From the NCBI GenBank assembly GCA_025353765.1, contig JANXOD010000002.1, positions 62,001 through 126,000 on the forward strand: a stretch of 64,000 nt of DNA, given 5' to 3'. The notes under the pieces were generated by a model. It made no database searches and was not told the DNA's origin. It saw only the letters and a program-made list of their open reading frames with translations. Both the position numbers and the translations under genes were made by a program. This DNA comes from Sphingobacteriales bacterium. Lineage in GTDB: Bacteria > Bacteroidota > Bacteroidia > Sphingobacteriales > Sphingobacteriaceae. Below, piece after piece: positions 10,046 through 35,983 of the stretch; position 1 is the first letter of the stretch; each line of letters opens with the position of its first letter.

Positions 10046-11824
10046 ATGAAAAAATTAGCTATTGCTGGCGTGCTTATCTGCATGATAATGGCATGTAAAC
10101 AACAAACTAAACTCAATGGGAGTACTGGCGATAAAAATTTCGCGACTTTATGTGATCGTTATTATGAAGAACGGATTCAGTTATTTCCTCTTGAAGCTAC
10201 CTTTGCCGGAGATGATCGTTATAACGATCTGCTACCAAACGATGGATCTTCGGCTTTCATAAAACAGTCAAAAGATTTTTATAAAAAATACCTTAATGAA
10301 CTGAAAGAGTATGACCGAAATGGACTGAACGATAATGACAAAATCTCTTATGATGTACTTAAAGATCAGCTGGAAGTAGGTTTGGAAGGATTAAATTATC
10401 ATTTTGAATATTTGCCATTCAACCAGATGTTTGCTTTACCTCTAACCATAGGGCAGCTGGGCTCCGGAACTGGGGCACAACCTTTTAAAACTGTTAAGGA
10501 TTATGATAATTGGCTGAAGCGGATTTCTGCTTTTTCGGTATGGGCAGATACAGCTATTGGAAACTTCAAAAAAGGTATTCAGGCAGGTATAGTGTTTCCT
10601 AAATCATTGGTTGTAAAAATTATTCCTCAAATGCAGAGTATGGTTGTAGCAGATCCGAAACGGAGTTTGTTTTACGGGCCTATCAGCACCATGCCAGCTA
10701 GTTTTTCTGATGCAGATAAAAAACGTTTTACAGATGAATACAGCAAGGCCATCATCAATCAAATTATTCCGACCTATAAAAAATTAGGTGATTTTTTACA
10801 GAATGAGTACTTGCCTATAGCAAGAAGTACATCCGGGTTTTCGGCTCTTCCAGGTGGAACAGCAATGTATACTTACTTGGTAAAGCAGCAAACCACCACT
10901 ACTAAAACTCCAGAAGAGATCTATCAAACAGGTTTAAAAGAAGTAGCCCGCATTAGAAATGTGATGGACAGTATTAAAAACAAGGTTGCTTTTAAAGGAG
11001 ATTTAAAGGCATTTTTTGAGTACATGAAAACAGATCCTAAATTCACGCCTTATAAAACTCCTAAAGAGATATTGGATGCTTTTGAAAATATTCATAAACG
11101 AATGGAACCTAATTTGGAAAAGATGTTTAAGAATAAGCCTAAAACTCCTTTTGAAATACGCCAAACAGAAGCGTTTAGAGCGGCTTCTGCGAGTGCAGAA
11201 TATAACCAGGGTTCAGCAGATGGTACAAGGCCGGGTATATTTTATGTTCCTATATTAGATGCTACCAAGTTTAATACAACATCGGGAATGGAATCTTTAT
11301 TCCTTCATGAAGCTATTCCTGGCCATCATTATCAAATTTCTTTAACTCAGGAAAATACATCACTTCCTAAATTTCGTCGTTTTGGCGGTCATAATGCTTA
11401 TGTGGAAGGTTGGGCATTGTATTGCGAATCTTTAGGCAAAGAACTTGGTTTATATACAGATCCATATCAACATATGGGTGCTTTAGGTGACGAAATGCAT
11501 CGTGCCGTACGTTTAGTGGTTGATGTAGCCATTCACACCAAAGGAATGACCCGCGAACAGGCCATTAAGTATATGATGGAAAATGAAGCGATAAGTGAAG
11601 AAGGGGCAACTGCAGAAATTGAACGTTATATGGCAATCCCCGCTCAGGCTTTAGGATATAAAATAGGAGCTTTAAAAATAAGAGAATTACGTACTAAATA
11701 TGAGCAACAATTAGGGGCGAAATTTAACATTGCTGATTTTCATGATCAGATTTTAAAGGATGGATCTTTACCATTAAGTGTATTGGAAACCAAGATGGAT
11801 ACCTGGGCAGAAAAGCAGAAGTAA
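10046..11824 (+). CDS. DUF885 family zinc peptidase-like lipoprotein
   Basis: A 592-residue DUF885 protein. The first 17 residues (MKKLAIAGVLICMIMAC) form a lipoprotein signal with Cys17 as the lipid-attachment site. The family signature HEAIPGHHYQ is present, followed about 40 residues later by EGWALYCESLG, whose Glu fits a third metal ligand. DUF885 proteins resemble M32/thimet-type metallopeptidases, but their substrates are mostly unknown. The C-terminal FHDQILKDGSLPLSVLE is a conserved closing motif. A strong hairpin at 11854-11889 ends the transcript. It is intact and of normal length for the family. Confidence 0.9.
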   Translation: MKKLAIAGVLICMIMACKQQTKLNGSTGDKNFATLCDRYYEERIQLFPLEATFAGDDRYNDLLPNDGSSAFIKQSKDFYKKYLNELKEYDRNGLNDNDKISYDVLKDQLEVGLEGLNYHFEYLPFNQMFALPLTIGQLGSGTGAQPFKTVKDYDNWLKRISAFSVWADTAIGNFKKGIQAGIVFPKSLVVKIIPQMQSMVVADPKRSLFYGPISTMPASFSDADKKRFTDEYSKAIINQIIPTYKKLGDFLQNEYLPIARSTSGFSALPGGTAMYTYLVKQQTTTTKTPEEIYQTGLKEVARIRNVMDSIKNKVAFKGDLKAFFEYMKTDPKFTPYKTPKEILDAFENIHKRMEPNLEKMFKNKPKTPFEIRQTEAFRAASASAEYNQGSADGTRPGIFYVPILDATKFNTTSGMESLFLHEAIPGHHYQISLTQENTSLPKFRRFGGHNAYVEGWALYCESLGKELGLYTDPYQHMGALGDEMHRAVRLVVDVAIHTKGMTREQAIKYMMENEAISEEGATAEIERYMAIPAQALGYKIGALKIRELRTKYEQQLGAKFNIADFHDQILKDGSLPLSVLETKMDTWAEKQK

Positions 11825-11853
11825 GTTTTAAATATATTAAAGCCTATTTATTA

Positions 11854-11889
11854 AAAAACCCGATTTGCCTTATAATAAATCGGGTTTTT
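11854..11889. terminator. Bidirectional intrinsic terminator
   Basis: A 13-bp perfect stem, AAAAACCCGATTT (11854-11866) with AAATCGGGTTTTT (11877-11889), with A-run and T-run flanks. It sits between the rightward DUF885 gene and the leftward lipoprotein gene ending at 11942, so it can terminate both. Confidence 0.88.
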
Positions 11890-11941
11890 ATGTTTAATAT
11901 ATTTATAATAATATGGCTATATTCTATACTTCTCTGAAAGA

Positions 11942-12631
11942 TTAGTTTTTCTTAAACTCGCTTACATTCCCTGCTTTATCAAATCTAAGATTATAGCTTT
12001 CACGTGTACCTTTGATGCCATCAGGTAGTTGGAAAAACCTCATGTTAAGTGCAGGCATATAGCTAAAAGAAATCATATTGCCAACTTTTCCACCTTCCAC
12101 ACCTTTTGCTTTCTCATCTGCAATTTTCATCATATTAGGTATGGCTTTATAATTAATTTCATCCAGATTAGTCAAATTATCGCTTACCTTTCCATCACCC
12201 GATAGATTTATTGGTGCAGGATCGCCCCATGCTCCATTAGTATACTCGTATTGATCTATATTGTCAGGTTTATTAGGGTCTGATATAGAAAGTGTGATTC
12301 GGCCTCCCTGAAAATCATAAAAAGTAATATCCTGAAATACCATGACCTTTTTCCCTTTGAATTTAGGCATTGCTTTTAATGCATCAAAGGCTTTTTCTAT
12401 AGCATCACTGCGAAGAAATTTTCCATCATCCGCTTTTTCGCTACTGCCAGTTGCACTTTTTAAAGCATTCTCTATAATAGCTGAAGCAGAACTCTTGTCA
12501 GTTTTTGCCTCTGATTTGCTAGCGATAGAATCTGCCTGACTAGTTTTCTGTCCTGTCTTGCTTCCACAAGAAATAATAGCCATACTTGCCATTATTAGTA
12601 GTGAAAAGTAAGTTAGTTTTTTCATATTCAT
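11942..12631 (-). CDS. Hypothetical lipoprotein (229 aa)
   Basis: Not assigned to a family. The N-terminus MNMKKLTYFSLLIMASMAII ends in a lipobox (IISC), followed by a Ser/Lys/Ala-rich linker of about 35 residues typical of Bacteroidota surface lipoproteins. The remaining domain has short beta-strand-like stretches (KVMVFQDITFYDFQGGRI, NMRFFQLPDGIKG) and a repeated aromatic pattern. ATG starts at 12631 and 12625 are both possible. It is convergent with the DUF885 gene and divergent from the small membrane protein gene at 12875. Confidence 0.72.
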   Translation of the reverse strand: MNMKKLTYFSLLIMASMAIISCGSKTGQKTSQADSIASKSEAKTDKSSASAIIENALKSATGSSEKADDGKFLRSDAIEKAFDALKAMPKFKGKKVMVFQDITFYDFQGGRITLSISDPNKPDNIDQYEYTNGAWGDPAPINLSGDGKVSDNLTNLDEINYKAIPNMMKIADEKAKGVEGGKVGNMISFSYMPALNMRFFQLPDGIKGTRESYNLRFDKAGNVSEFKKN

Positions 12632-12874
12632 GTTGTTTAGATTTAGGTGTAATTTTTATTCGAAAGTAATATTTCTTATAGGTAATTACAAATATTAAAA
12701 CGCAAGAGTTAAGTATGATATAAATTAATACATAGAGGAAAATTGAAATCAATAGTTAAAAGGTATCTTTAGCGTTTTTAATAGATCTTTATGAATTTGT
12801 AAAATGGCTGTTACATACCTATATTTAAATTGTAATTGCTTTTCGGCGTGAAATAAATGCACTTAATCTAACAT

Positions 12875-13306
12875 ATGAAAAAGAAAATAATTTGGTTTAT
12901 CGTTTTGTACATCGTGTATCTTCCTGTTGCGATGTTTGTAAGTTTTATGATTCCTGCTTTATTGAATATACCGCCTATATTTCCTGGAGTGGTGCTTTGT
13001 ATTTTATTTCTTGGTGGACCAATCATTTATTTCTCTCTTACTTATGATAAGCCCGGCAAGGCAGAAAAACAAATTTTACTGAGCGGAATAGAAGCAATTG
13101 CACAACTTAACTATGTAAAAGATACAGGCATAACTATGAATGGATTTAATAGAGTTGTTGTGTTAGGTTTAACTGTATTTGGCAATGGAGAGAATTTTGA
13201 AGCAGAGGCAGAATCCCAATATAATAAATACATGCTACCTCGTCCCGGGGATAAAATAAAAGTGAAATACGATCCTTCTAATAAAACTAAACTTGTTGTT
13301 TTGTAA
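12875..13306 (+). CDS. Small membrane protein with soluble C-terminal domain
   Basis: A 143-residue protein of unknown function. Two transmembrane helices occupy residues about 4-30 and 33-55 (IIWFIVLYIVYLPVAMFVSF and the stretch around VVLCILFLGGPIIYFSL). A roughly 75-residue soluble tail follows, ending RPGDKIKVKYDPSNKTKLVVL. That ending resembles the small beta domain of DUF3592-like membrane proteins, where a PGDxVxVxYDP motif recurs, so DUF3592-like is a reasonable but unproven label. It stands alone. Confidence 0.65.
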   Translation: MKKKIIWFIVLYIVYLPVAMFVSFMIPALLNIPPIFPGVVLCILFLGGPIIYFSLTYDKPGKAEKQILLSGIEAIAQLNYVKDTGITMNGFNRVVVLGLTVFGNGENFEAEAESQYNKYMLPRPGDKIKVKYDPSNKTKLVVL

Positions 13307-13494
13307 TAGTAATCATACTAAAAATATTCTATTGATATCGCAAAAGGCTATTTCATAATTAAAATGCTCGTCATTAATTAATTTGACCAAAATCTAGTCT
13401 GTTTATTCTTCAATTTTTAAAACTTATAGACTAATAATCTGTTTTTAAATGAAGGTATAGTCAATAAATTTTAACCTTTTAAAAAAACAGAATT

Positions 13495-13872
13495 ATGAAA
13501 AAGATTGCAGTATTACTTGCTCTAGTTTTATGGGTAGGTGTTGTGTTAGCACAAGAAAAACCTGATTCAATTCAGAAGCAGAAAACTAAACCTATACTAG
13601 TGCCTGTACAGGAAGAAAATTATTTGATATTTGATAAAGGGAAACTTTATGAAGTAAAAAAAGAGGCATGGATAGAAGTTAAGGTTCCTGTTACTTTAAA
13701 AAATGGCATTGTGGTTAATAAAGATGGCTCCTACCAAACTCAGGATAAAAAACAGCGTCAATTGAAAAATGGTGAGTATTTAGATTTGAAAGGAAATCAT
13801 TATCCAAATAAGTCCCGGTTTAAAGAACATCGGCCAACGACAGAAAAGGAAATAGAGATTGGGCATCCCTAA
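13495..13872 (+). CDS. Exported DUF6799-like protein
   Basis: A 125-residue exported protein. The signal peptide MKKIAVLLALVLWVGVVLAQ has a clear VLA-Q cleavage site. The mature part carries the pattern typical of DUF6799: DKGKLYEVKK, then VTLKNGIVVNKDGSYQ and LKNGEYLDLKGN, that is, two short beta repeats with an NG/DG turn. No catalytic residues are apparent. Probably periplasmic. It is convergent with tRNA-Ser and shares the terminator at 13908-13941. Confidence 0.7.
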   Translation: MKKIAVLLALVLWVGVVLAQEKPDSIQKQKTKPILVPVQEENYLIFDKGKLYEVKKEAWIEVKVPVTLKNGIVVNKDGSYQTQDKKQRQLKNGEYLDLKGNHYPNKSRFKEHRPTTEKEIEIGHP

Positions 13873-13907
13873 ACTTTGAAAAATTATAGATGTTTCCTTC
13901 CAAAATA

Positions 13908-28955: not shown

Positions 28956-28986
28956 CAAAAGTATGTAATTTCCATGCCTTTAACAA
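28956..28986 (-). promoter_or_regulatory. gcvP promoter: TTG-N20-TACTTTTG
   Basis: Read leftward, TTG (28984-28986) is followed after 20 bp by TACTTTTG (28956-28963), both elements of the Bacteroidota consensus at correct spacing. The predicted start site near 28949 gives a leader of about 20 nt. Confidence 0.65.
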
Positions 28987-29146
28987 TGCATAGAAAGGGT
29001 ACTGACTATTTAAATGATATGAAGTAAATTTGCGATCGCATAAATGATTATTTTTGATAATCTATCCTCTATATGACTAACATATTCATTCTAATGAGCC
29101 TTAGGAACAGTGGTTACTTATCCATTTATATTAAATAACGTATGAT

Positions 29147-30076
29147 ATGGATGTTTATTTAAGCCCTCTTCATTTTCTTCCTGAAGGAACCGATATTAAA
29201 GATATTAGTTCTAAACAGCTTTTATTAGCTAAGAAAAAACTACTAGCAGAGATAGAATTAAGTCCTACAAAAACAATCATTTTGAACAAAGTAGTTTGTA
29301 CCCAAAACGATCTATTAAATTTATTTAATGATTTGTCGCAGAATGAAAAACAACTTCATTATCATTTTGCCATATTTAATAATCGTGCTTTACTCGAGTT
29401 TTTGGAGAATCGTTTTGTTGGTATTTTGCCTGTCGCTTTAGAAAATAACCTACTTGAAGATAAAATTTTTATAGATTTTATCTCCCCTTATTTCGAGAAG
29501 GTATATGCTTCTTTATTTATTAAATGTATTAAGCAACTTCGGATTGCTTCAATAAATGTATTGATCGCTAATTCATACTTAATGAATTATGCAGATCGGG
29601 ATAAGAGCGATAAAGCAATAGAACACTATCTTGATAAAGATATTAAGCAGATACTCATTTATACTCAAAAGATTAATACTCAGAAGAGAATCAGTTTTTT
29701 CTATCCTCTTAGTATTCTCAATCTTTTTAACCTTTTCATTCCAAAGAACTATAGAGTTAGTGAATTAAAGCAATATTATAATTCTACTCTTATTGCAATT
29801 TTAAATGTATTACCAGAGAAGTTTAGTAGCATACGTACAGAATATTGCAGAGTTGTAATGAACATGGCGGTAGGTTTACAACGTCATGATTCAAAATTAG
29901 CTTTAAGTATTTTAAAAAAAGTTAGAGTTCTTAAATGCAGTGATTCCATGCACCAAAAGGTAGAAAGCAATTATCGCATTATGTCACCCAAGCTGAAGTT
30001 TGGGCGTTTATTTCTTTATCTTATTGCTGCTTTCATAATCCTAAGGATTCTGGGATTTCTAATCGCACTTATATAG
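29147..30076 (+). CDS. Hypothetical protein with C-terminal membrane anchor (309 aa)
   Basis: Not recognised. The protein starts MDVYLSPLHFLPEGTDIKD with no signal peptide. It is mostly helical, with a basic SKQLLLAKKKLLAEIEL segment near residues 22-38, and ends in one strong membrane helix of about 25 residues (FLYLIAAFIILRILGFLIAL), so it is predicted to be tail-anchored with a cytoplasmic domain. It is convergent with the Hsp70-like gene, with only 25 bp between stops. A link to that chaperone pair is plausible by position only. Homologues are expected in other Bacteroidota, but I cannot test this. Confidence 0.65.
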   Translation: MDVYLSPLHFLPEGTDIKDISSKQLLLAKKKLLAEIELSPTKTIILNKVVCTQNDLLNLFNDLSQNEKQLHYHFAIFNNRALLEFLENRFVGILPVALENNLLEDKIFIDFISPYFEKVYASLFIKCIKQLRIASINVLIANSYLMNYADRDKSDKAIEHYLDKDIKQILIYTQKINTQKRISFFYPLSILNLFNLFIPKNYRVSELKQYYNSTLIAILNVLPEKFSSIRTEYCRVVMNMAVGLQRHDSKLALSILKKVRVLKCSDSMHQKVESNYRIMSPKLKFGRLFLYLIAAFIILRILGFLIALI

Positions 30077-30101
30077 GCAAATACTTATTTTAACCTAATA
30101 A

Positions 30102-32600
30102 CTACCCTATCCCAGTCCCTTTTATCCTATCGTCATCTTTTATCTTATCAGGCAACAGATGATATAATCCGCTAATAGCTACCCATACTTCTTCATAGTT
30201 TTGGCGTTCGAGGGCTTTATCTCCAATCTGTATAAATTGCTGGGCTTTCTTCTGGTCTTTAAAATTTTCAATGGGCTGACTGGCATAATAATGATAATTA
30301 TGAGCTATCACATAGGGCTTATTCCGGCGAACTTCCCATACTAAATCTTCTAACTCTTTAATTTTAGCCTGAATAGAGTATATGCTGTTTGAACCGAGAT
30401 ATTCTTTTTCATGGGCAATAATAGTTTCAAAGCGGTTTAAGCGAGCTGTATCATTTTCTTCCTTCAATTCTCTTTCACAAAAATTCTTTTCTGAAAAATA
30501 TTTTTCTTTAAGTGCCGGGAGTTTTTGCTCTTTGCCGGTAATATCTAATTGCTGGGCCAATTTCCGCTTGCGTTCTTCCCAAAAATATTTTTCATCCGTA
30601 ACATCGTCCTCACCCAATTCATTTACACCCGAATAAGCCTCTTCTAAATCAGAAAGAATGTTCTGAATAGCTATTGCTCTTTCAAACTGTTCTGTTTTTT
30701 CAAACTGATTGAGCTCTTTCCGTGCTTGCTTTAATAGGGTAGAAATTTCATCTTTTAATTTCGTCAGGCTAACCTTACGCACACTGGGATTAAACACATC
30801 AGAATATTCCTGGTCATTGATTAACATGAGGGCTATGATCTTAAGATCACGCGACTCACTTATCTCTAAAGTGATCTCAATATCTGATCCTTTTACCAGG
30901 TCATTTTCTAATCCTTTCCCATTAATCTCAATCACACCTAAGGGAATACAAGATGAAGGAACTGCATACCGATTGCCTTCCAATACATTGATGATAAGGC
31001 TATCAGCCTGATCACGTTTAATGGTTTTTGTAATCTCCTTCAAAATAGTTTTGCGCAAAGGAAGGATCGCATTTTTTTCAAAGATCAATTCCAGCTTAGT
31101 AGTATTCTCTTCCCGGTCATCTATTTCTATACAAATATCATTAGGTAAAGGTTGTCCGTAAACTGTATATTTTCCATGTACTATTTCAATGGGAGTGTAA
31201 GGAATATCTACCAAATTATTACTGCTATCATATACCGAAAAAGTGAAACTGTTATTGGTGTTCTCTACCACTGGCAGCATTTCTGAAATTCGTTCAGCTA
31301 ACTTCTTTAATCCCGAATCATACCCTCCATCATTTCTGATGATACGGTAAAGTAGATTTTCAATTTCTCCGGTAATAGCAGCCGTAAAATATTCTTCCTT
31401 ATCGTTGGTCGCTTTTGCATACGCTGTCCGGATGTTGATATTAGAGCTATTAAAAGGTTTGTCCTGCTCATCCAGAATAGCAAAAGATTTCGTTTTTGAG
31501 CCTGCAAAATAAGCAGCGCCAATAGCCACTGCTGTGGTAGGATCCACGCTTGTATTTACAGCTATACCCAGTTTCTCGGTAATTAACCTCTTTACTAATG
31601 GGATATAAGTACTGCCCCCAATCATAATCACCTCCTGCAAATCAAGTGAAGATAGATTATTACGTTCTAAAATAGATTGGATCAGTTGTATACTATACTC
31701 AATCTTTTCTCTGATGCAATTTTCAAATTCATTCTTAGAAATAGAGAAATAGAGCTCATGTAGCTTATCGTTATCATCTGTAATTTCAAATTCTATTTCG
31801 GCAGTATCCTTATTGGTGAGTTCTATTTTAACCTCTTCCGCTTTTTTCAATAAGAGATAGTATAGTGAATTATATTTTCCTTTAGCGCTGCGTAATTCTT
31901 TGTGCAAATCGCCATTAAAAGTTCCCTGCGAATAGATGTAAGGTAAAATGCACTGCTGTATTAACAGGTTATCAAAATCAACCCCTCCCAAATAATTATC
32001 GCCTTCATGGTCTACTACACGCATCTCACCTTCAATAATTTTTACCAAAGCCACATCAAATGTGCCTCCGCCAAGGTCATATACTAACCATTGACCCTGT
32101 AAGGAAGAGTTTTCATTATTTTTATTTGCAAATGCCAGACTGGCAGCAATAGGTTCTTGCAATAAGGTAACTTCTTTAAAACCGGCTTCATACCCGGCTT
32201 TTTTAGTGGCATTAGATTGTATAGTATCAAAAGAAGCGGGTATAGTGATCACCACAGATTCAATTTGTTCGCCGGTATACACAAAATTCTTAAGCTCTTT
32301 TAAAACTAAGGTTGATAATTCAACCGGTGATTTAAAATTACCAAGGCTGCTAACAAAAAAGTTTTCAGATGTCCCCATTTTTCGCTTAAAGGCACTGAAT
32401 ACATTATTAGGATCTTTTTCGATAAACTCTTTTGCTTTATCGCCTATAATGATCCGTTCGTTACGAAAGGCAACAACGGATGGAAGAGTTTCTTTATGTC
32501 CGGTGGGATTTTTAAATACTTCTACCGAGCCATTGTTCATTTTGGCAATTAAAGAATTGGTAGTTCCCAGATCGATGGCAAAGTTTATCGTTTCACTCAT
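30102..32600 (-). CDS. Hsp70-like chaperone with divergent C-terminal half (832 aa)
   Basis: An Hsp70/actin-fold ATPase, longer than DnaK (about 640 residues) and clearly not the housekeeping DnaK. The nucleotide-binding domain (about 1-380) has phosphate-1 AIDLGTTNS near 9-16, conserved Lys in FKRKMG, connect-1 LQEPIAASLAF at 147-157, phosphate-2 DLGGGTFD at 175-182 and adenosine MIGGSTYIP at 326-334. The DnaK Thr199 position (GDTHLGG) is Asn here (GDNYLGG). A weak substrate-binding-like beta region follows. The last 250 residues are helical and charged, coiled-coil-like, ending without an EEVD or acidic tail. The GrpE-like gene lies 4 bp upstream. No J-protein is visible nearby. Confidence 0.88.
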   Translation of the reverse strand: MSETINFAIDLGTTNSLIAKMNNGSVEVFKNPTGHKETLPSVVAFRNERIIIGDKAKEFIEKDPNNVFSAFKRKMGTSENFFVSSLGNFKSPVELSTLVLKELKNFVYTGEQIESVVITIPASFDTIQSNATKKAGYEAGFKEVTLLQEPIAASLAFANKNNENSSLQGQWLVYDLGGGTFDVALVKIIEGEMRVVDHEGDNYLGGVDFDNLLIQQCILPYIYSQGTFNGDLHKELRSAKGKYNSLYYLLLKKAEEVKIELTNKDTAEIEFEITDDNDKLHELYFSISKNEFENCIREKIEYSIQLIQSILERNNLSSLDLQEVIMIGGSTYIPLVKRLITEKLGIAVNTSVDPTTAVAIGAAYFAGSKTKSFAILDEQDKPFNSSNINIRTAYAKATNDKEEYFTAAITGEIENLLYRIIRNDGGYDSGLKKLAERISEMLPVVENTNNSFTFSVYDSSNNLVDIPYTPIEIVHGKYTVYGQPLPNDICIEIDDREENTTKLELIFEKNAILPLRKTILKEITKTIKRDQADSLIINVLEGNRYAVPSSCIPLGVIEINGKGLENDLVKGSDIEITLEISESRDLKIIALMLINDQEYSDVFNPSVRKVSLTKLKDEISTLLKQARKELNQFEKTEQFERAIAIQNILSDLEEAYSGVNELGEDDVTDEKYFWEERKRKLAQQLDITGKEQKLPALKEKYFSEKNFCERELKEENDTARLNRFETIIAHEKEYLGSNSIYSIQAKIKELEDLVWEVRRNKPYVIAHNYHYYASQPIENFKDQKKAQQFIQIGDKALERQNYEEVWVAISGLYHLLPDKIKDDDRIKGTGIG

Positions 32601-32604
32601 GGTA

Positions 32605-32931
32605 TTATGTTTTTGATTCTACTATTACAACAGCTCTTTGTATAATATTTTTTGAATTGCCAGCCTTTTGGTAAATAATAGGTTTAATTACATTGCTGAT
32701 AAAGAGATTTTGTACCGCATCACCTCCAATTTCTGCTTCGCAATCCGTACGTGTTTCATTATATGATTCGCCAAGCGGATCATGTATAAAAAGGCCGGTT
32801 TCTTCATACATATTCTTAATACGATCTATATTTCGCTGTATCGAATGCATTTCTGCTTTTTGACTTGCTTTTCGTTCAATTTCATATAATTGGTTAATAA
32901 TTTTAATGTTAAACCTAATTGAATCATTCAT
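32605..32931 (-). CDS. Small GrpE-like nucleotide exchange factor candidate
   Basis: A 108-residue protein directly upstream of the Hsp70-like gene (4-bp gap). Residues 1-45 form a charged helix (RFNIKIINQLYEIERKASQK). The rest reads like the beta head of GrpE: GLFIHDPLGESYNETRTDCE, then VIKPIIYQKAGN and IIQRAVVIVES. These resemble the DPxxHEA and VxRPAxVxVxx elements of GrpE. It lacks the long N-terminal coiled coil of typical GrpE (about 190 residues). The GrpE link is inference from motif order and neighbourhood. If right, this is a dedicated mini-exchange factor for the neighbouring chaperone. Confidence 0.6.
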   Translation of the reverse strand: MNDSIRFNIKIINQLYEIERKASQKAEMHSIQRNIDRIKNMYEETGLFIHDPLGESYNETRTDCEAEIGGDAVQNLFISNVIKPIIYQKAGNSKNIIQRAVVIVESKT

Positions 32932-33034
32932 ACAGTTAATATTATTTGTGGGTAAAAATAGGAAGTATATAAAGAATAATGATAAATGATGTTTAAAAAT
33001 TGGATGGGATTGATGTTGGATTAAGTATAATACA

Positions 33035-33067
33035 AACCCTCGGTGGTTTCAAAAACTACCGAGGGTT
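33035..33067 (-). terminator. Strong hairpin upstream of the GrpE/Hsp70-like operon
   Basis: AACCCTCGGT (33035-33044) pairs with ACCGAGGGTT (33058-33067), and the interior GTTT/AAAC can extend it. Read leftward only a weak TTTGTATT tail follows. It lies 104 bp before the GrpE-like start and about 100 bp after the 33164 gene, so it may be a terminator or part of a leader. Confidence 0.55.
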
Positions 33068-33077
33068 AAATTTGTAG

Positions 33078-33139
33078 AACATCGTAAACCTAAATACTTA
33101 TGACACACTTATAAAAAAACCTCCAGGTTTTACGATGTT
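33078..33139 (-). other. Overlapping alternative hairpins (possible attenuator)
   Basis: AACATCGTAAACCT (33078-33091) can pair with AGGTTTTACGATGTT (33125-33139), allowing one bulge. The second arm also carries AAAACCT, which can instead pair with the adjacent AGGTTTT-run (33112-33131) to form a terminator-like hairpin plus T-run on the leftward strand. The two structures exclude each other. The element sits between the 33164 gene and the GrpE/Hsp70-like pair. Confidence 0.4.
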
Positions 33140-33163
33140 TTTACTGTAAGCAGCCTGCTATTT

Positions 33164-33868
33164 TTACACCAATGGCATAATATCCTTGCTCTGTGTATTG
33201 TTGGGAGTATGAACAATACTTTGGTCAAAAAAGTTATTAATCAAATCCGGCTGCCCTTTATTTTCTCGGGCTATAAGCAGCAGATTATCAAATAGCTGAT
33301 TGTCCCAGGCTGCTTCGGCATTTTCGCGGTTAGTAATGCCGGCACTTACCTGGCTTATTTTAGTTAATTGTAAATTTCGAACCAGGGCGTATTGAATTCG
33401 GAATGCTTCGTATTCTGCTAATACGGTTGCCCCACCGGCTACAGCAGGCTGAAGTGTGATTACCTCTACCAGGCGTGTCATGAGTTGTTCTACGTTGCCT
33501 TTATTTACATCGCGGGTAAACTCGGTAACACCTTGCGGAAAAAAGGTTTGATAAACCGGTTGTTTATCTACTTCGGTAGAAATTAAGAAATTGTTCAGGC
33601 GGGTATTACGTTTTTTAAAAGCTTCCATCAGGTGATCAACCGATTCGGTTTGGGCTTTTTGTAAGGCTTTGGTTACCTCTACATTAGTAATGTCACCAAA
33701 TAGGGCAGTTTGTACAGCCGCCGTGTCTACAATGGTCTGGTCATATATATTAGCTGTATTTTGAACAGTAAGATTTACCAAGTGGCTTTCGCCGAATTTC
33801 TTTTTCTTGTCAAGACTGATCTTAGGATCACTGAAAGGATTTTGAAGGAAAGATTCTAGTTGTTTCAT
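33164..33868 (-). CDS. Hypothetical helical protein (234 aa)
   Basis: Not recognised. The start is taken as ATG 33868 (MKQLESFLQNPFSDPKISLD), although the frame extends to a TTG at 33895. It is a mainly helical cytoplasmic protein with no signal peptide. Visible patterns are FGESHLVNLTVQN, DTAAVQTALFGDIT and FFPQGVTEFTRDVNKGN. It ends in a polar tail, SKDIMPLV. No catalytic motif is apparent. It lies 232 bp upstream of the GrpE-like gene on the same strand, separated by two structured hairpins. It could be co-regulated with the chaperone pair by read-through, but this is unproven. Confidence 0.68.
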   Translation of the reverse strand: MKQLESFLQNPFSDPKISLDKKKKFGESHLVNLTVQNTANIYDQTIVDTAAVQTALFGDITNVEVTKALQKAQTESVDHLMEAFKKRNTRLNNFLISTEVDKQPVYQTFFPQGVTEFTRDVNKGNVEQLMTRLVEVITLQPAVAGGATVLAEYEAFRIQYALVRNLQLTKISQVSAGITNRENAEAAWDNQLFDNLLLIARENKGQPDLINNFFDQSIVHTPNNTQSKDIMPLV

Positions 33869-34179
33869 ATTTTCAAAGGTTAAGTTAGCAAGCAAATTAA
33901 TTGTTTATTTTTATACTAACAAGTATTTTATTATATTTTAAGTATTTTAAATAATTTATTTATTATTTATCGCCCCGAAATATAATAGTGTGCAGGATGG
34001 TACTTCCAAAGTTGGAACATAGGCACTGCAGTGTGCGGGATGGTACTGCAAACTTTGGAGGGCGTATTATAACAAACTAATTTTTCTATGAAAGTACTAA
34101 AACATACTGGACCATTCTAAGGTTTATTGTATTCAGGTCATGATATGGCTTGCAAGCTTATTTTAAGTATAAAAATGAT
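33869..34179. other. AT-rich intergenic region with 28-bp repeat pair
   Basis: This 311-bp region between divergent genes has no coding frame I would support. The left half is very AT-rich. The right part contains two imperfect 28-bp direct repeats (33988-34015 and 34031-34058), a GC-richer island in AT-rich DNA, with a GCACTGCAGTGTGC palindromic stretch between them. Confidence 0.5.
33988..34058. repeat. Pair of imperfect 28-bp direct repeats, 43-bp period
   Basis: Copies at 33988-34015 and 34031-34058 match at 23 of 28 positions. The shared core is GTGTGCxGGATGGTACT followed by a CAAAxxTTGG-like half palindrome. Base composition is richer in G and C than the surroundings, which suggests a mobile or dispersed repeat rather than drift. 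Confidence 0.5.
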
Positions 34180-34518
34180 ATGATAAAGAATTTATCTAAT
34201 GTGGGGCATTTCTTTTGGGGAGATAATTGCGAACGATGGGAGTTTTTAATATCGGATGACTTAATCGTGGTACAGGAGAAAATGCCTCCCGGTACAGCCG
34301 AACAGATGCATTTTCATAAAAAGGCGCAGCAATTCTTTTATATACTTTCAGGTATTGCAACGTTTAACGTGGAAGGCCAGTTATTTAAATTAAAAGCGAA
34401 TGAAGGAATTTCTATTCTACCTAATGTGATGCACCAATTTTCTAATCGTGAAGAGGAAGATTTAAATTTTCTTTTAATCTCTCAGCCTACATCAAAAGAA
34501 GACAGATATAATATATAG
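34180..34518 (+). CDS. Cupin domain protein (112 aa)
   Basis: A small cytoplasmic single-domain cupin. The start at ATG 34180 (MIKNLSNVGHFFWGDNCERW) is chosen over an upstream in-frame TTG at 34150. Cupin motif 1 is PPGTAEQMHFHKKAQQFFYI, with two metal-binding His and Gln in the usual Glu position, then GIATFNVEGQ. Motif 2 is SILPNVMHQFSN with one His. The substrate is unknown. A second cupin gene, exported and only distantly related, follows 54 bp later on the same strand. Confidence 0.85.
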   Translation: MIKNLSNVGHFFWGDNCERWEFLISDDLIVVQEKMPPGTAEQMHFHKKAQQFFYILSGIATFNVEGQLFKLKANEGISILPNVMHQFSNREEEDLNFLLISQPTSKEDRYNI

Positions 34519-34572
34519 GTTCAATTCAACATATTTCAAAGCTGTGCTATTTCTATAAATTCTTATAAAACG

Positions 34573-34968
34573 ATGAAAACAATACTTAGTTTTTTAGTGC
34601 TCACTTTACTTTTTAAGAATGCTATGGCACAACAGGAAATAATAAGGAAAGAATTACTTAGTGCAGAAATTGGGAAAAGGATTATTTCAAAAGTAGATGT
34701 ACGAGAAATTAGCTTTGAGCCATTGCAAAGAACAGGTCGCCATAAACATCCTTGTCCGGTTTTTGGATATATAGCAGAAGGACAAATACTATTTCAGGTA
34801 GAAGGCCAGCCGCTACAGATTTTGAAAGCAGGGGAAGCTTTTTATGAACCTGTTGATACCCCGATAGCACATTTTGATAATATTTCCGATAAATATCCGG
34901 CAAAGTTTATTGCCTACTATCTCTTAAATGGAGAAAAGGAGCTTATTGAAATGCTGCCAGAAAAGTAG
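34573..34968 (+). CDS. Exported cupin domain protein (131 aa)
   Basis: A single-domain cupin with a signal peptide (MKTILSFLVLTLLFKNAMAQ, cleavage after AMA). Motif 1 includes RTGRHKHPCPVFGYIAEGQI, with two His, and motif 2 is GEAFYEPVDTPIAHFDN with the third His. The metal-binding site therefore looks complete and would be periplasmic. The function is unknown. Similar exported cupins in Bacteroidota lie near small-molecule or efflux genes, but none is visible here. It is followed by a small exported hypothetical gene 68 bp later. Confidence 0.87.
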   Translation: MKTILSFLVLTLLFKNAMAQQEIIRKELLSAEIGKRIISKVDVREISFEPLQRTGRHKHPCPVFGYIAEGQILFQVEGQPLQILKAGEAFYEPVDTPIAHFDNISDKYPAKFIAYYLLNGEKELIEMLPEK

Positions 34969-35036
34969 AAGAATTTGCAGATAGCTACTAGCTATTAAGT
35001 TCACCAGAATCAAATAAAAACCCTAAACTTGTCTTC

Positions 35037-35579
35037 ATGAAATACACTTTACTCTTTATCGTAATGATGCTAAGTTCGGGGCTTATAAAAGCTCAGAAAG
35101 GAAATAACCAGCTAAAACTGATGGTAGAAATGGGTATAGCCGAACAGCCCAATACTATTGGACCCGGTTTATTTTTAAAAGGCCTATATGGCTTGGGTAC
35201 ATCCTCACAATTTACTCTTACATCAGGATTTTCTATGTTTCAATCAGAGAGTGGTATTGTGGGTTATAGAGCAACAATTACCCATTTGATTCCTGTTTTA
35301 GCAGGGTATAAACAGAATATTCATCAATTTTATATAGAGCCTCAACTCGGTTTTGGAGAATTGGGCGGCAGAATAGATATTGGCGGAGATTATGCTAAGC
35401 CCTCTGTTGGGGCTTTTTTCTGGGCAATAGGTGGAGGCTATGATATGAAGCAATTGAATATAGGTATCCGATACCAAAGTGCACATGGTATAGAGAGTGC
35501 TTCGGCAGGTGATTGGAGTAATAAGAGCTTTCATTACACAGGTATATCTGTTGCTTATAGTATTTTTTATAAGAAATAA
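35037..35579 (+). CDS. Exported beta-rich hypothetical protein (180 aa), outer-membrane-like
   Basis: The signal peptide MKYTLLFIVMMLSSGLIKAQ is followed by a 160-residue mature part with alternating amphipathic strands (LFLKGLYGLGTSSQFTLTSG, IEPQLGFGELGGRIDIGG, NIGIRYQSAHGIESA). It ends in an aromatic residue pattern, ISVAYSIFYKK. This suits a small eight-stranded outer-membrane barrel. There is no named family I can identify. It stands in a rightward run of small genes (34180 to 35983). Confidence 0.65.
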   Translation: MKYTLLFIVMMLSSGLIKAQKGNNQLKLMVEMGIAEQPNTIGPGLFLKGLYGLGTSSQFTLTSGFSMFQSESGIVGYRATITHLIPVLAGYKQNIHQFYIEPQLGFGELGGRIDIGGDYAKPSVGAFFWAIGGGYDMKQLNIGIRYQSAHGIESASAGDWSNKSFHYTGISVAYSIFYKK

Positions 35580-35614
35580 TTTTTAATGCTGTTGAGATAT
35601 CAGCAATAAACAAC

Positions 35615-35983
35615 TTGAGCGAAATAGATAACTTTTATCTGCAAAAAGATGAACCTGTAAAAAGCTGTTTATTAGCCTTGCGGGAAATTATTCTTTCGCA
35701 AGACAAAGACATTACGGATGTCTGGAAATACGGAATGCCTTTTTTCTGTTATAAAGGCAAAATGTTTTGCTATTTATGGGTTCACAAAAAATATCATCAG
35801 CCTTATATTGGAATTGTGGAAGGAAAGCGTTTTGATCATCCCGATCTGATTATTGAAAAGCGTTCGCGAATGAAGATCATGTTAATCGATGCAAGTCAGG
35901 ATTTGCCTATTAAGACAATTGAAATAATCTTACAACAAGCCATCAGTTTTTATAAAACCGGAGAAATAAAGCTGAAAGGTTAA
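35615..35983 (+). CDS. DUF1801 family protein
   Basis: A 122-residue cytoplasmic DUF1801 (YdhG-like) protein. The frame starts at TTG 35615 (translated [10 protein letters not shown]), with no better ATG in frame. Family features are the N-terminal helix then [20 protein letters not shown] and the [12 protein letters not shown] ending. The family has no firm function. It converges with selD and their 3' ends overlap by 4 bp (35980-35983). Confidence 0.82.

Follow-up and report, generated by a model that had tools for sequence, protein, structure and literature searches.

What kind of chaperone system is built around an Hsp70 whose gene lies 4 bp from that of a 108-aa protein, with no DnaJ gene nearby? 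The question is raised by a 64,000-nucleotide stretch of a Sphingobacteriales bacterium genome (assembly GCA_025353765.1, contig JANXOD010000002.1, positions 62,001 to 126,000), hereafter the window. A first-pass annotation had proposed a specialised chaperone machine, and we retain this as the best reading. The form of it towards which we lean is a three-protein machine, in which a specialised Hsp70 works with a private GrpE-type factor and with a membrane partner replacing the J-protein. The annotated reading frames were confirmed: the 832-aa Hsp70 frame (30102-32600, minus strand) is separated by 4 bp from the 108-aa frame (32605-32931, minus strand), and a 309-aa frame (29147-30076, plus strand), which ends in a hydrophobic C-terminal helix, converges on the Hsp70 gene from 25 bp away. 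The frame further upstream (33164-33895, minus strand) does give the annotated 234 aa from an internal ATG, but it gives 243 aa from a TTG. The features discussed here are, in window coordinates:

28976..35979, no strand, gcvP-selD interval of 7.0 kb containing the module (neighbour comparison in congeners)
29147..30076, plus strand, third component, a 309-aa helical protein with a membrane anchor at its C-terminus (next to the pair in 17/18 near loci; pLDDT 83.2)
29999..30073, plus strand, hydrophobic C-terminal segment, residues 285-309 of the 309-aa protein, proposed tail anchor (sequence; within model helix 266-308)
30102..32600, minus strand, Hsp70-family protein of 832 aa (Pfam HSP70 1.2e-68; relatives 35-61% identical)
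30831..31094, minus strand, stretch resembling the DnaK substrate-binding beta domain, Hsp70 residues ~503-590 (hhalign)
31101..31490, minus strand, family-specific insert, Hsp70 residues ~371-500, replacing the VLLL linker (alignment A3, linker print-out)
31500..32579, minus strand, ATPase (nucleotide-binding) domain, Hsp70 residues 8-367 (K70, D194, T199, D201 and GTTNS equivalents intact)
32148..32168, minus strand, altered J-domain contact site, with DnaK R167, N170 and T173 replaced by T145, Q148 and I151 (alignment and residue table)
32605..32931, minus strand, stalkless GrpE-fold protein of 108 aa, proposed private exchange factor (predicted model)

The 832-aa protein matches Pfam HSP70 with a best stretch that ends at residue 367. 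It scores far under the NCBIfam equivalog cut-off for HscA (239.6 against 708.55) and under both of those for DnaK (232.5 against 648; 231.4 against 822.55). Individual residues were compared in a table of 21 family Hsp70s (13 near and 8 distant) aligned through their motifs to the DnaK of the module's genome, in what we take to be E. coli DnaK numbering, with Thr199 as the Thr of GGGTFD; the table omits L002-L005 and L009 (other Chitinophaga loci), L116, L010 and L011 (both truncated by the end of a contig) and L100 (Hsp70 split in two by the annotation). The equivalents of K70, D194, T199, D201 and GTT/SNS are intact in 21/21 proteins, in agreement with the annotation of intact ATP-site motifs in the window Hsp70, where the catalytic residue equivalents are all present. 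The same annotation had described Thr199 as altered, which is not the case, this Thr being intact in the window protein and in all 21 family proteins aligned; the letter that does change lies in GDT, which reads GDN at about position 225, and ordinary DnaKs carry this change too (Geobacillus 2v7y). The genome's own DnaK (L014, G000:C37) reads DCGGGTHD, against D[LFI]GGGT[FL]D in the other Hsp70s aligned.

In the Hsp70s that have been studied well, it is an HPD J-domain that turns the protein on, and we take N170, T173 and E217 of DnaK to be J-domain contacts. The loss of DnaJ-contact residues, which the first reading had overlooked, is the stronger point about this Hsp70. Among the proteins of the residue table (13 near, 8 distant), the R167 equivalent is Arg in 0/21, the N170 equivalent is Gln in 20 and Leu in one, the T173 equivalent is Ile or Val in all and the E217 position is also altered in all; the E206 position is variable, and it is a Lys in the genome's second Hsp70 as well. 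The VLLL linker motif was seen in none of the 21 compared. R167 of DnaK is the residue touched by D35, the HPD aspartate of DnaJ, and DnaJ D35N is suppressed by DnaK R167H, according to passages of PMC8215388 and PMC5519331. Judged by sequence, the J-domain contact point of the module Hsp70 seems lost, and because this is the usual switch-on contact, the protein may respond to another sort of trigger. The insert that precedes the beta-domain-like stretch is conserved (alignment A3), and the stretch itself was placed by hhalign in the right register over 81 columns (probability 40, E 3e-4, a score without shuffle control).

The beta head of GrpE is the part that wedges the Hsp70 ATPase cleft. 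The 108-aa protein had been annotated as a GrpE head without the long stalk, which is right for the predicted fold, a GrpE helix pair and beta head with the long stalk missing. The proposed comparison of this fold with GrpE was run, and GrpE occupies Foldseek ranks 1-10 (best E 0.039 with probability 0.96, none below 0.001), while VIA returned six GrpE chains at Z 7.0-9.1 and a seventh at Z 4.7, the best other fold reaching 3.9. Residues 1-107 of the model align to GrpE 85-195 of 1dkg_B. The best model has a pLDDT of 83.8 and a pTM of 0.74 (10-row alignment), and over five models the mean pLDDT goes from 83.8 down to 50.2, two of them being near 50. No match was found to Pfam PF01025 up to E 1, nor to GrpE in NCBIfam or against PDB sequences. 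Homology to GrpE at the sequence level was also sought by profile-profile comparison with three GrpEs, where the score of 17.6 was at noise level, the highest of 60 shuffles reaching 16.9. Both the lack of sequence similarity and the two models near 50 count against our main reading. Going by its predicted fold, the small protein may be a private nucleotide exchange factor.

The pair formed by this protein and the Hsp70 is conserved, as the check for conservation in other genomes showed. Among near loci readable on both sides, the small protein adjoins the same Hsp70 in 18/18. A related-locus search gave 11 loci, seven of them from Chitinophaga, with the pair side by side in nine; in the other two, L010 and L011, the contig stops on the 5' side of the Hsp70. 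In a sample of 395 genomes across the phylum, the small-protein profile has matches in seven and the Hsp70 C-terminal profile in the same seven and in four distant ones. The pair is adjacent in 8/8 genomes, namely the seven of the profile searches and G061, the module's own genome being included. The small protein occurs in 2/100 relatives, again with its own genome counted; alignment A1 includes the window and L013.

The 309-aa protein is predicted to be mainly helical, and its gene adjoins the pair in 17/18 near loci, the window included, three of these cases being weakly supported. Homologues stand beside the pair in L001-L006, L008, L009, L029-L032 and on a Pseudomonas plasmid; the plasmid homologue (E 1e-20, small set) has TPR repeats ahead of the domain. 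The third gene of L007 is marginal (E 0.005), and those of L033 and L034 were assigned from their position, their hydrophobic C-terminus and a profile-profile comparison, in which a set that also included L094 scored 33.1 and the best of 60 shuffles 23.4. At L035 no third gene lies beside the pair, but one is found on another contig of G061 (E 6e-33), coding for 309 aa with a hydrophobic end. Alignment A8 holds rows from L029-L034, so that hits in those six genomes arise by construction, and G035, G117 and G061 are not part of it; a profile built without these rows picked up the third gene of L029, L030 and L032 and two copies in L031, and missed L033 and L034. For L030 the N-terminus was taken from an internal Met (ORF residue 108). 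The orientation of the third gene varies between convergent, downstream codirectional, upstream codirectional and divergent. It occurs without the pair in G035 and G117 (2/395 genomes), and in G117 it adjoins dprA-like and SPOR-like genes, the same genes being next to the module of the congeneric G292 (by eye). The occurrence of the third gene alone, and the weak cases of L007, L033 and L034, count against our main reading. The protein is fast-evolving and duplicated in Chitinophaga. At the Chitinophaga loci L001-L006 and L009 (~10490-13890) it is extended to ~540-560 aa beyond the membrane segment, and the lengthened form consists of two tandem copies by blastp in the six loci checked.

The helix order of the 309-aa protein had prompted a J-domain reading, which was rejected: hhalign against 19 J-domains (31 J-domain loci fetched) did not exceed shuffles, 4/60 being as high. 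The sequence contains no HPD and has no Pfam DnaJ match. This lack of J-domain similarity is a further point against our main reading. No J-domain appears among the structure comparisons listed, but these mainly cover residues 107-295, so its absence there says little. The first-pass annotation had put forward both flanking proteins as clients or cofactors. The 309-aa protein is supported as a third component of the module; the 234-aa protein is not conserved and was dropped as a component, with no match at E<=1e-3 (loci including L001-L009) or at E<=1e-2 in L029-L035, its own genome excepted.

The genome has four Pfam-HSP70 matches, which are DnaK, a second full-length protein that we label HscA-like, the module Hsp70 and a partial one. 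One ordinary GrpE is encoded on a contig other than the window's, and three J-domain genes (PF00226) are spread over contigs C35 and C32; the window is part of C23. Since the housekeeping DnaK, GrpE and J-domain genes are on other contigs, the module is extra to the housekeeping set; the absence of a nearby DnaJ noted earlier holds for the whole window, which contains no J-domain gene. Gain or loss of the module was followed in 12 congeners with gcvP, for 11 of which the locus was obtained: gcvP and selD are neighbours in eight of the 11, one has another neighbour and two have none on that side. As the two genes are contiguous in most congeners, the module was either gained here or lost in many relatives. 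The Pseudomonas plasmid, conjugative by PLSDB typing, carries the three module genes in a row, with an Hsp70 43.4% identical over 98% and a small protein 43.1% identical over 94%. Its Hsp70 falls inside the near clade of the tree (94/88) and pairs with L030 (93/91), neither node being fully supported. A phage origin was rejected, no relative of the Hsp70 C-terminus being found in phage records by tblastn, and pattern-limited scans of viral contigs gave neither the Hsp70 nor the small protein.

Similar Hsp70s are encoded at four distant loci of the phylum and at plasmid loci of Haliscomenobacter, Aminobacter, Shewanella, Vibrio, Aeromonas and Polaromonas (of eight long plasmid matches, H2-H9, seven were fetched and H5 was left out). 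The gene just upstream of the distant Hsp70 codes for a small protein or a membrane protein, and in L049, L051 and L096 it is a membrane protein with a small-protein-like end. By sequence, the connection with the small protein of the near loci is weak (E 3e-4 for L051, 4e-3 for L049 and 8e-5 for L096, in small sets), and unconvincing for L048, L050 and L097-L099. One protein, picked by eye in each of the 8/8 distant loci translated, has an NPFxxLG-like start without HPD. As a group these proteins score 24.3 against DnaJ J-domains, with a shuffled maximum of 12.2 in 60, over 21 columns and at a probability of 33, and they have no Pfam DnaJ match; that of L048 shares a cysteine-rich stretch with the third protein of L030 (E 2e-6, pairwise). 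Pam16/Magmas is a J-like protein without HPD that works beside the J-protein Pam18. The distant relatives of the module resemble it in having an HPD-less, weakly J-like partner, whereas no resemblance to J-domains was seen in the near third protein. In the tree, the canonical Hsp70s stand apart on a long branch (100/100), and the near and distant groups are each whole, the distant one weakly supported (81/87). The branching order of the near, distant and canonical groups is unsettled, and that near and distant systems form one class is thus something we infer.

Downstream in the distant operons lie kinase-AAA genes in L049 and L051 (Pfam), and AAA or ATP-binding genes follow in the plasmid operons (annotation), with a TerB gene in L096. 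The annotated neighbours of distant Hsp70 operons include brxL and pglZ (BREX), zorA (Zorya) and Tn7-like tnsD/tnsE, and BREX, Zorya or Tn7-like surroundings were observed for the plasmid operons L096 (4366-16292), L116 (140-12647), L098 and L100. These plasmid operons, with their Hsp70, GrpE-like or small, AAA and J-like genes, are a candidate for an unnamed defence-associated system. PADLOC-DB 2.0.0 gave no match for the four window proteins at E<=1, and of eight proteins taken from relatives a single one matched, marginally, PbeC (E 0.0058). No defence gene was recognised by eye among the window's own neighbours, and any defence link would come from the neighbours of distant relatives. Inspected by eye, a protein with DUF4062 and formylglycine-enzyme-like domains lies beside the operon of L049 (7531-10533) and a TIR-like protein beside that of L050 (5766-6263), both labels being our presumption.

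Our best reading describes the module as a mobile specialised Hsp70 machine, with exchange activity, trigger and function as the conjectural parts. Going by its intact residues, the Hsp70 would bind and hydrolyse ATP in the ordinary way, and the small protein, given its predicted fold, would open the ATPase cleft so that ADP and client are released. Since docking residues and linker motif are lost, ordinary HPD J-proteins would probably not drive the machine. The tail-anchored protein, constantly associated with the pair, may stand in for the J-protein, tethering the Hsp70 to the inner membrane on its cytoplasmic side and either presenting a client or triggering hydrolysis. The patchy gain and loss of the module and its plasmid-borne wider kin would make an envelope or conflict-related client likelier than bulk unfolded protein. 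A wider proposal, about which we are doubtful, is a J-less Hsp70 class with a stalkless or membrane-anchored GrpE and an HPD-less partner, which plasmids and Tn7-like elements carry between phyla and which serves anti-phage defence as a threshold switch powered by ATP.

Other readings of the same genes have to be weighed. The tail-anchored protein might be a guarded effector, for example a membrane-disrupting client kept inactive by Hsp70 and exchange factor until phage or stress overload, which we regard as unlikely. Its membrane anchor fits, as do its rapid evolution and its duplication in Chitinophaga, the location of distant kin within Tn7-like elements and next to BREX and Zorya genes, and the dependence of phage sensing by bNACHT25 on a chaperone, stated in part of PMC12169576. 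A toxic effector, however, should not allow the third gene to occur without the pair, as it does in two of 395 genomes, and neither a PADLOC defence family for the window proteins nor a recognisable defence gene among the window's neighbours was found. It is quite improbable, in our judgement, that the Hsp70 is an ordinary paralogue served by housekeeping J-proteins, with the contact changes tolerated and the third protein an unrelated membrane client. Three J-domain genes are at hand in the genome, and in L029 (7321-8514; G113) a CbpA-like J-protein gene and a CbpM-like gene adjoin the module (by eye), where the CbpA-like protein could be the module's J-protein, against our main reading; but R167, N170 and T173 are replaced in all 21 proteins, the linker motif is absent from all of them and the third gene is linked in many arrangements. 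Last, a small protein that is GrpE-like in fold yet acts as an adaptor or structural subunit would account for the missing stalk and GrpE sequence signature; we give this very little weight, given the beta head that is kept and the strict pairing with the Hsp70 in near loci.

Under the three-protein reading, the module resembles DnaK-DnaJ-GrpE in its catalytically intact ATPase domain and in the adjacent gene for a GrpE-fold partner. It differs in that this partner lacks the long stalk and any sequence similarity, in that the Hsp70 lacks J-contact residues and VLLL linker and has an insert before the substrate-binding part, and in that no HPD J-protein belongs to it. As with HscA-HscB and HscC-DjlB/DjlC, a specialised Hsp70 exists alongside the housekeeping DnaK; according to parts of the review PMC8215388, HscA and HscC each retain J-proteins of their own and are considered to work without GrpE, and the HscC system is taken to serve membrane proteins. 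The module looks like the reverse, with the GrpE fold kept, the J contact lost and an Hsp70 of 832 aa versus ~550-620. A search of the open-access literature, with subscription papers and preprints outside it, found no description of the module. The nearest described theme is the HSP70 and GrpE of the GAP1-N2 GTPase systems, predicted conflict loci with extra genes for both; their DO-GTPases, GAP1 and FNIII proteins, often DnaJ-fused, are found mainly in actinobacteria and firmicutes (sections of PMC7159879). Unlike in those systems, no DO-GTPase, GAP1 or FNIII gene was seen in the near loci, whose neighbours were inspected by eye.

On our best reading, the genome carries an Hsp70 motor separate from its ordinary folding machinery, with a miniature release factor and a membrane-anchored partner. 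The lineage looks like HscA/HscC in reverse, the GrpE fold being kept and miniaturised and the J contact lost, and such an arrangement would offer a natural experiment on what the Hsp70 cycle can do without. The mobile relatives beside BREX and Zorya genes suggest a chaperone-based stress or immune switch, unnamed by the family libraries used. Several near loci have further neighbours, noted by eye. A small TerB-like protein follows the Hsp70 in L030 (4905-5363; G307), comparable to the TerB gene of the distant L096, and an 845-aa protein with a PP2C-phosphatase-like start is encoded upstream of the pair in L035 (2305-4842; G061). In L031 (4090-11527) and L032 (3697-11128), from two genomes of a single genus, the module is immediately adjoined by gldN, gldM, gldL and gldK-like genes, presumably those for gliding motility and type IX secretion.
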